A stretch of DNA of 64,000 bases. Source: Maritimibacter sp. GTDB lineage: Bacteria > Pseudomonadota > Alphaproteobacteria > Rhodobacterales > Rhodobacteraceae. The translations under genes and the position numbers were made by a program. The stretch is from NCBI GenBank assembly GCA_017792445.1, contig CP051232.1, forward strand, positions 1,488,001 to 1,552,000. The letters are read 5' to 3'. The notes below the pieces were generated by a model. That model saw only the letters and a list, made by a program, of their open reading frames with translations, did no database searches and was not told where the DNA came from. Numbering within the stretch: position 1 is the first letter of the stretch; the number at the start of each line of letters is the position of its first letter. Below are positions 36,101-46,142 of the stretch, one piece after another.

Positions 36101-36222
36101 GATGCCCCTGCGTAAGGTATTCCGGACTATCGCAAAGGTTGTCACCGCGTAGTCTGATCACCATATCGCAAAGAGACCCCGCCGCATGTCCGGGTAATGG
36201 CATGCACCTCCCTGTTGGACTG

Positions 36223-36253
36223 GCCCGGGCACCTTTGCCCGGGCTTTTTTTTC
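36223..36253 (+). terminator. Strong intrinsic terminator 120 bases after cenR
   Basis: GCCCGGGC pairs with GCCCGGGC around ACCTTT, followed by eight T. The 122 bases between the cenR stop and this stem have no reading frame. They carry a CCTCC stretch near 36208 and a possible promoter-like TTGTCA near 36139, so they could be a long 3' UTR or a small RNA. Confidence 0.92.
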
Positions 36254-43745: not shown

Positions 43746-44912
43746 TCACTTGGACAGGAACGCCTTCATCCGCCCCAGCGCTTCGCGGATATTGTCCTGC
43801 GAGTTGGCATAGCTCAGGCGGATATAGCCTTCGCCCAGTGTTCCGAAGTCCGGGCCGCCAACGGTGGCGACGCCGGTTTCTTCCAGCAGGGACAGCGCGA
43901 GTTTCTTCGCCTTCCAGCCGGTCTGCGACACGTTCGGGAAGGCGTAGAACGCGCCCTTGGGCGTGATGCACGAGACGCCGGGCAGGTCGTTGGCGAGGTC
44001 GACGACCAGCTTCCGGCGGGCGTCGAATTCGGCGACCATCTTCGCGACTGCATCCTGGGGGCCGGTCAGCGCCTCGAGCGCGGCGTATTGCGAGGGTGTG
44101 TTGACGCAGGACCATGCGTTGACCGCCAGTTTCCGGGCCTTGTCGTACAGATCCTGCGGCCAGACCGAATAGCCCAGCCGCCAGCCGGTCATCGCGTAGG
44201 TCTTGGACCAGCCGTTCAGCAGGATCAGGCGGTCCCGGATCTCGGGGTAACCCAGGAGGGTGACGTGCTCTTCGCCGTCGTAGAGCATCTGGTCGTAGAT
44301 CTCGTCCGACATGATCGCCACCTCGGGCCAGTCGGCGAGGCCCGCGACCAGCTTGTCGACCTCGGCGCGCGGCGTGACGCCGCCGCAGGGGTTGGCGGGC
44401 GAGTTGACGATGATCAGGCGCGTCTTGTCGTTGATCAGCGACAGGGTTTCCTCGGCCGAGAAGGCAAAGCCGTTCTCTTCGCGGATCGGGATCGGCACCG
44501 GTTTCGCGCCGGTGAATTCGATCATCGAGCGGTAGATGGGGAAGCCGGGATCCGGGTACAGGATTTCCGCCCCCGGTTCGCCGAACATCAGGATCGCTGT
44601 GAACATGGTGACCTTGCCTCCGGGCACGATCAGCACGTTATCCGGGTTCACCTCCGCCCCGAAGCGGCGGTGCAGGTCGGCCGACACCGCCTCGCGCAGG
44701 GGCGGGATGCCGGTGGCGGGGGTATAGCCGTGCTGGCCGTCGCGCAGCGCCTTCACGGCCGCTTCGACGATGTTCTCCGGCGTCGGAAAATCCGGCTGGC
44801 CGATGCCGAGGTTGATGACGTCCATGCCCTGCGCCGCAAGTTCCCCGGCGCGCGCCAGCACGGCAAAGGCGTTTTCTTCGCCGATGCGGTCAAATCCCGC
44901 GATGGTCTGCAT
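43746..44912 (-). CDS. Class I PLP-dependent aminotransferase
   Basis: 388 residues. Fold-type I pattern: NLGIGQPDFPTPENI, GYTPATGIPPLREAVS, NSPANPCGG, DEIYDQMLYDG, and the PLP lysine K237 in NGWSKTYAMTGWRLGY. Most like aspartate/branched or methionine aminotransferases. The exact substrate is not readable, and neighbours give no clue. Divergent from gdx. Confidence 0.9.
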   Translation of the reverse strand: MQTIAGFDRIGEENAFAVLARAGELAAQGMDVINLGIGQPDFPTPENIVEAAVKALRDGQHGYTPATGIPPLREAVSADLHRRFGAEVNPDNVLIVPGGKVTMFTAILMFGEPGAEILYPDPGFPIYRSMIEFTGAKPVPIPIREENGFAFSAEETLSLINDKTRLIIVNSPANPCGGVTPRAEVDKLVAGLADWPEVAIMSDEIYDQMLYDGEEHVTLLGYPEIRDRLILLNGWSKTYAMTGWRLGYSVWPQDLYDKARKLAVNAWSCVNTPSQYAALEALTGPQDAVAKMVAEFDARRKLVVDLANDLPGVSCITPKGAFYAFPNVSQTGWKAKKLALSLLEETGVATVGGPDFGTLGEGYIRLSYANSQDNIREALGRMKAFLSK

Positions 44913-44983
44913 GGCTGTCCTCCCTGTTCCGGCCGTCCCGAGGTTGTTGCGTATCGGACCGCGTTTGGCAATGACCGCGCGGC

Positions 44984-45012
44984 TTGAAACCGGGGGCCGG
45001 GCGGGCTAGATC
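44984..45012 (+). promoter_or_regulatory. Candidate promoter of gdx
   Basis: TTGAAA (44984-44989) and TAGATC (45007-45012) with a 17-base spacer. The predicted start, near 45018, falls right at the beginning of the first riboswitch hairpin. Confidence 0.55.
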
Positions 45013-45015
45013 GCG

Positions 45016-45066
45016 GGCAGAGGACGGCCTCGCCATCAAGGTAATTCCGACCGGGACGGCCCGGAC
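45016..45066 (+). promoter_or_regulatory. Guanidine-II (mini-ykkC) riboswitch
   Basis: Two hairpins each with the ACGG tetraloop. GAGG-ACGG-CCTC is at 45020-45031, lengthened by GGC/GCC at 45016-45018 and 45032-45034. CCGGG-ACGG-CCCGG is at 45051-45064. A 16-19-base linker joins them. A GGAAGG ribosome site (45072-45077) follows within 10 bases of the second stem. Paired ACGR-tetraloop hairpins ahead of a small multidrug-resistance gene are the definition of mini-ykkC, which senses guanidine as a loop-loop dimer and controls translation of guanidinium exporters. Confidence 0.88.
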
Positions 45067-45087
45067 ATACTGGAAGGAAACTCTGTC

Positions 45088-45408
45088 ATGGCGTGGATCA
45101 TTCTCTCTGCCGCCGGCCTGCTTGAAATCGTCTGGGCGCTGGCGATGAAGAAATCCCAAGGCTTCACCGTGCTTGTCCCGTCGATCGTCACGCTTGTCGC
45201 GATGTTTGCGAGCTTTGGGCTGCTTGCGGTCGCGATGCGCACGCTGCCCCTGGGCACCGCCTATTCGGTCTGGACCGGGATCGGCGCGGTGGGCGCTTTC
45301 CTTGTCGGCGTCATGTTCCTTGGCGAAGCCGCGACACCGATGCGCCTGACGGCGGTCGCGATGATCGTGGGCGGGCTGGTTCTGATGCGGCTGTCGGGCG
45401 GTCACTGA
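45088..45408 (+). CDS. gdx: Guanidinium exporter, SMR family (Gdx/SugE)
   Basis: 106 residues, four membrane helices. The essential SMR glutamate is E13 in [42 protein letters not shown] is the Gdx/SugE-type signature, as opposed to EmrE. Gdx proteins export guanidinium in exchange for protons as antiparallel dimers. The riboswitch in the leader supports this over a broad drug transporter. The stop overlaps the convergent recO stop by 7 bases. Confidence 0.93.
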
Positions 45409-46142
45409 CCGCCGGGACGGTCCAGCCGGGCCTGCAGATCGACGAAGCGCTGCCGTGCCGACGGCAGCGCCCGATCTCCCAGCGCGGGCGCCAGCCAATG
45501 TTCCATGAAATGCCCTGTCGTGCGCAGCCCCTGCGCCACCTCGGACGACGGTGCGTCGTACAGAATGCGCAAACAACGCGGCAGCGGCAGCAGCCGGTCT
45601 TTCCACTCGCCCGCCCCCGCCTCTGATACCGCACGCCCGGTGCGGGGCGAGACATAGTCCAGCCCCTGCGTCGCCCCGGTCACCGCGCAGGCGCTGAAGT
45701 CGAGGCCGAAGCCCATCTCGTCCAGCAACGCGAGTTCCCAGTGCAGATAGGCAAGCGGCCAGAGATCCGGCGTATCCAGCATGTCCAGCAGCGCGACGCT
45801 GCGGTGATAGAGCGGCTCGTGCGCCTCGCGCTCGGGCAGCGTGAAGGACAGCAGCGCGGTCACCGCGTTCAGCCCGGCCAGCGCCAGCCGGTCGGACATC
45901 ACCGACGCGGCGCGGCTTTGCAGCGGCTCCACGGTGAAGGCGCCCAGATGATCCTCGAGCCGCGCGCGCCATGTCACGTCAAGCTGCGCCCCCGGTTGAA
46001 GGATCGGCGCGGTCTTGCGGCTGGCGCCGCCACGCACGACGCCAAGGTGCCGGCCACGGCCGGGAGTGAAGACCTCGATGATCGCGCCGGACTCGCCGTG
46101 GCGACGAGAGGTCAGCAGGATTCCCTGATCGCGCCATTCCAT
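45402..46142 (-). CDS. recO: DNA repair protein RecO
   Basis: 246 residues. OB-fold N-terminus ([30 protein letters not shown]) and the helical part with [23 protein letters not shown]. With RecR it loads RecA on SSB-coated DNA. Its zinc cysteines are reduced, as is common in alphaproteobacteria. It sits a little beyond era and DUF1491 in the rnc-era order. The start is divergent from the Pr6Pr gene. Confidence 0.95.

Follow-up and report, generated by a model that had tools for sequence, protein, structure and literature searches.

The question raised by this locus of Maritimibacter sp. (Rhodobacteraceae; contig CP051232.1), which lies in a 64,000-nucleotide stretch of DNA analysed as a whole (positions 1,488,001 to 1,552,000; hereafter the window), is whether two short hairpins ahead of an SMR gene form a Guanidine-II riboswitch controlling a guanidine exporter, and which exporters stand behind such elements in related bacteria. 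The sequence bears out the arrangement originally predicted, with perfect stems of 4 and 5 bp, ACGG in both loops and a GGAAGG ribosome site directly ahead of the SMR gene, whose start is 24 bases from the aptamer end (Table 1).

Table 1. Features of the riboswitch and exporter locus (positions refer to the window).
Feature	Position	Strand	Basis or details
Promoter-like pair TTGAAA-17-TAGATC	44984..45012	+	TTGAAA 44984-44989, TAGATC 45007-45012; predicted start ~45018-45020
Guanidine-II riboswitch aptamer	45016..45064	+	RF01068, 33.7 bits, cut-off 32
Hairpin P1	45020..45031	+	GAGG 45020-45023, loop ACGG 45024-45027, CCTC 45028-45031; 4 bp
Linker, 19 bases	45032..45050	+	TTCC able to pair with ribosome-site GGAA (fold prediction only)
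Hairpin P2	45051..45064	+	CCGGG 45051-45055, loop ACGG 45056-45059, CCCGG 45060-45064; 5 bp
Shine-Dalgarno-like GGAAGG	45072..45077	+	Sequence; 10 bases ahead of ATG 45088
Gdx/SugE-type SMR exporter, 106 aa	45088..45408	+	Pfam, NCBIfam, PDB, residues E13, W16, S42, W62

The covariance search by which the prediction was to be checked placed the element above the curated cut-off of RF01068 in both window and genome, with an alignment covering 48/48 model positions and a margin of 1.7 bits over the gathering score. The E-value was 0.0055 for the window against 4227 Rfam families and 9.4e-5 for RF01068 alone against the whole genome (4,675,334 bases), in which this is the single match above cut-off, the next-best scoring 19.5 bits; other guanidine riboswitch classes were searched for in the window with all of Rfam. 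Elsewhere in the window, 36177-36250 (+) matches the SorX sRNA (RF02784; 74 bits versus a cut-off of 46.6). Like other Guanidine-II elements, that of the window consists of two GC-rich hairpins, each with an ACGR loop, joined by a linker no shorter than 13 bases and adjoining the ribosome site of an exporter gene, and it differs in nothing essential, its P1 having just 4 bp and both its loops being ACGG. Judged by model and sequence, it is a genuine and ordinary member of an already known class. That there is no riboswitch here, the hairpins having arisen by chance ahead of a multidrug SMR gene, is hardly credible: the sequence is GC-rich and the whole leader shows no extra folding stability over shuffles (z -0.27), but besides the RF01068 score above cut-off, paired ACGR hairpins (four or more Watson-Crick pairs per stem; loop spacing 24-45 bases) occur once in the window, both strands scanned, and in 0/200 order-1 Markov sequences of 64 kb. 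The same arrangement also precedes relatives of the downstream gene, which is moreover of the Gdx rather than the EmrE type.

This last assignment follows from residues and best matches. The 106-residue protein matches Pfam Multi_Drug_Res at 91.1 bits, SugE leads the NCBIfam models that match it (121.6 bits; next model 68.3), and among structures in the PDB it is closest to Gdx-Clo (~1e-28, compared with 4e-13 for EmrE). With Gdx-Clo and SugE it shares a full-length match and the residues E13, W16, S42 and W62; Trp16 is conserved in Gdx, whereas the Qac subtype has Gly or Ala there (PMC7695847). However, its score falls 4.4 bits short of the SugE equivalog cut-off (126 bits). The name Gdx-type used here therefore reflects its residues and its best match, and by the equivalog rule it would not count as SugE; guanidinium/proton antiport is its putative activity. 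A second SMR gene in the genome, at 4081614, looks by eye to be of the EmrE kind, has Gly where Gdx has Trp16, and is preceded by no RF01068 match up to an E-value of 10. In a plasmid collection, 712 records (654 predicted conjugative) partly match window positions 44900-45410; they are mostly from Escherichia, Salmonella and Klebsiella, and the 20 matches listed are mostly to SMR genes.

A -35/-10 pair placing the transcript start at the first hairpin had also been predicted. Such a pair is present, with 11 bases between the end of TAGATC and the P1 loop. A strict promoter scan of the region reported none, because the -10 element does not have the final T that the scan requires. When 57 family leaders were aligned on the P1 loop (excluding L153, which has one ACGR loop, and the 10 places where no gene was matched), T-rich and A/T-rich positions appeared near -41 and -17. 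By one looser rule, a TTG..TA pair is found in 34 of the 56 distinct leaders (one duplicate dropped), against 1.2 on average, and 5 at most, in 200 rounds of shuffling. Transcription thus probably begins at the first hairpin across much of the family, and the conserved promoter position makes such a start likely in the window too.

On this footing, the Guanidine-II element would control translation of the Gdx antiporter as follows. The transcript would begin at the first hairpin. Without guanidine, folding of 45018-45100 predicts P1 to be open, with its 3' side and the following bases paired to the start-codon region, and the ribosome site to be paired with linker bases. Two guanidinium ions would then bind, and the ACGG loops of P1 and P2 would kiss through C-G/G-C pairs, as the ACGR loops of the G. 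violaceus hairpins do with two guanidines in crystals (PMC5486947). The bound hairpins would be locked, the ribosome site would be freed and the exporter made. For the P. aeruginosa element, guanidine-dependent initiation and a Shine-Dalgarno-pairing P0 helix, tested by RelE cleavage, are described (PMC9561414); in contrast, the probable start at P1 would leave the window leader little 5' flank for a P0. A canonical Guanidine-II riboswitch governing Gdx translation is very probably the explanation of the locus; guanidine binding, translational control and the exposure of the organism to guanidine, as originally proposed, are properties that we infer from the class.

The two predicted states lie close together in energy. 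Forcing the hairpins makes the window leader 0.4 kcal/mol less stable than its free fold, and the ribosome site is hardly more exposed (unpaired 0.53, versus 0.50 in the free fold). Across the 47 leaders compared in the same way (10/57 being dropped for having no scored ribosome site), access rises by more than 0.1 in 23 and drops in 5. A near-balanced switch is a plausible reading of these models. A specific anti-Shine-Dalgarno pairing, which the folds would allow, found no support in a swap test: when the P1 3' strand plus linker was matched with the ribosome site of its own leader or with those of other leaders, own-site complementarity was weaker than swapped (-8.98 versus -9.96 kcal/mol; p 0.9992; 55 distinct leaders), and no such pairing is claimed.

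Conservation of the loops in relatives gives a mixed picture. Two ACGR loops are kept in many Gdx leaders of the family, but ACGG itself is not conserved: ACGA is commoner in the 23 family SMR leaders (P1 18/23, P2 14/23). The fourth P1 pair is variously CG, GC, TG, AT and TA across these leaders, which were chosen with the covariance model and hence favour pairing. Loss of the loop in a related genome, named in the original proposal as an observation that would refute it, was seen in one relative, G296, which has the nearest Gdx relative (84% identical, same genus) and in which ACGR is gone from both loops. There (L163/L176; probably the MAG of L038/L039) P1 is palindromic with the loop GCGC and the P2 loop is ATGA, the element being degenerate or altered. 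One might suppose from this neighbour that the window element too is inherited but unresponsive, a decaying switch with Gdx expressed constitutively; the 1.7-bit margin, the four pairs of P1 and the small predicted effect of forcing the hairpins would all fit. However, both window stems are perfect, ACGR is retained in both loops and the promoter spacing has been kept, and we consider decay improbable.

Beyond the family, a variant form came to light. Nine Gdx leaders of other Alphaproteobacteria (L041, L045, L049, L056, L057, L058, L061, L062 and L065) have a P1 loop of at least six bases with ACG inside it (CCACGT and kin), and a P2 of CCGGGACGGCCCGG; RF01068 finds 0/9 of them at E <= 5. Of 385 class genomes searched, a model trained on the nine leaders together with L169 matches 15 at E <= 0.01. 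Two of the matches were strong, namely L233 (identical with the training leader L169) and a new one, L232 (62.6 bits); among the weaker, L238, L239, L241 and L234 share the form, and the others are ordinary members of the class, including the window's element, plus apparent chance matches. SMR genes follow L232, L238, L239 and L241. By eye, the variant element of L234 (genome G403) stands ahead of a short, broken Gdx-like remnant. In the hexaloop leaders, including L232, L238, L239 and L241, P2 is mostly invariant. Over 12 hexaloop sequences, three of the four P1 pairs vary on both sides and 91.7% of P1 cells pair, with the structure set from the same 12 rows; 30 of 500 shuffles equal that count of pairs varying on both sides. 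To judge from this hexaloop form, a branch of the Guanidine-II class may escape the Rfam model.

The genes behind RF01068 matches differ between the family and its wider surroundings. In Rhodobacteraceae, 65/295 genomes have a match at E <= 0.01 (41 above cut-off), amounting to 68 places; by tblastn across the following 500 bases, the next gene encodes a PACE protein in 33 of these, an SMR protein in 23 and UAAP1 in 2, with none assigned in 10, all of which score below the RF01068 cut-off. For the 42 places above cut-off, the counts are 23 PACE, 17 SMR (Gdx) and 2 UAAP1. In the class, 39/385 genomes hold 42 places, the best 30 of which precede 16 SMR, 8 UAAP1 and 4 PACE genes, and 2 genes of neither kind, the four PACE loci being spread over four other families. 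In the phylum (78/398 genomes with matches), 28 further best-scoring loci, 22 of them outside the class, precede 20 SMR genes, 1 UAAP1 gene and 7 genes that are guanidine/urea carboxylase-like by eye, with PACE behind 0 of these 28. Since the class and phylum loci are the best-scoring ones and not a random draw, the PACE link is alphaproteobacterial in these samples, and no more is claimed. UAAP1, an accessory of guanidine carboxylase, gave two matches in the window genome, both below cut-off.

The PACE assignment itself was put to curated models for four switch-linked proteins, and all four exceed the NCBIfam PACE_transport cut-off (130.0 to 138.4 versus 80 bits), the remaining switch-linked rows being assigned by tblastn alone. 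In this they resemble the known PACE proteins AceI and PA2880, from which they differ in sitting behind a Guanidine-II element and in falling below the AceI equivalog cut-off (4/4). Such an arrangement can be seen, for example, at L023 1501-1997 in a family genome. A survey of 100 family genomes found 22 PACE genes above cut-off in 21 of them: 12 lie behind an RF01068 match, 2 (G006, G050) behind two ACGR hairpins recognized by eye and 2 (G018, G071) behind degenerate elements, and 6, including the one in the window genome, have none.

A tree built from 53 PACE proteins (without L199 and L200, which score below cut-off, and without L157, a duplicate) gathers all 38 switch-linked rows in one clade of 44 with support of 98/98, or 97/93 when four long or stop-bearing rows are removed, the bootstrap being unsettled in both cases. 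The other six rows of the clade have a degenerate element (L181, L188) or none (L195, L196, L197, L278). The switch label needs six changes on this tree, which we read as losses. L197 is the window genome's own PACE gene (G000:C1:1318284-1318682, also L159), lying inside the switch-linked clade without an element; it pairs with L278 of G226, and both genomes have a switch-controlled Gdx. The window genome has both pumps, with the switch at Gdx only.

Gdx and PACE switches occur together in 0/295 family genomes, where 2.5 would be expected (P(0) 0.064); this exclusion within a genome is suggestive only. The 23 genomes with a switch at Gdx contain 9 PACE genes in 8 genomes, with no ACGR hairpin pair in the upstream bases printed. 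Conversely, the 32 genomes with a switch at PACE contain 27 SMR genes in 25 genomes, and at the Trp16 position of Gdx these have Trp once, Phe once and Gly or Ala in 23 cases, with 2 not covered. In these small numbers, uncorrected for relatedness, we read PACE as possibly standing in for Gdx.

What the switch-linked PACE proteins export can be read in two ways. They may be general cation or drug pumps and not guanidine exporters, guanidine serving as an alarm signal or the switch having simply captured them, a reading that we hold to be possible but short of probable. PACE proteins are published as exporting chlorhexidine, dyes and other biocides, and short-chain diamines have been proposed as their physiological substrates (PMC9045395), which would favour general pumps; PA2880, in the same source, conferred no cadaverine resistance, and 'guanidin' occurs there in a reference only. 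However, the confinement of the 38 switch-linked rows to a single clade, the occurrence of PACE in positions taken elsewhere by Gdx or by genes linked to guanidine carboxylase, and the rarity of Gdx Trp16 among SMR genes of the switch-PACE genomes (1/27, with the two unread ones among the 27) all speak against this. The other reading, to which we give an even chance, is that the PACE clade, present in Rhodobacteraceae and some further families of Alphaproteobacteria, constitutes a second, non-SMR exporter of guanidine, or of a derivative, under Guanidine-II control, which would take the place of Gdx, and that the clade members in genomes with a Gdx switch have lost their own. Chlorhexidine, a PACE drug, is a bis-biguanide. 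The literature searched contains no report of a link between PACE and Guanidine-II, and one review deals with the two families separately; the gene tables of the original class description, outside that coverage, may list it. Both this link and the hexaloop form of P1 may be new.

For Maritimibacter sp., the locus corrects an annotation: a gene that would ordinarily be annotated as a quaternary-ammonium or multidrug pump becomes a candidate guanidine exporter. For the family, if guanidine is indeed what the switch-linked PACE pumps carry, PACE proteins would gain a physiological substrate, the question of their purpose could be tested directly, and one RNA switch would control guanidine export by two unrelated kinds of protein.
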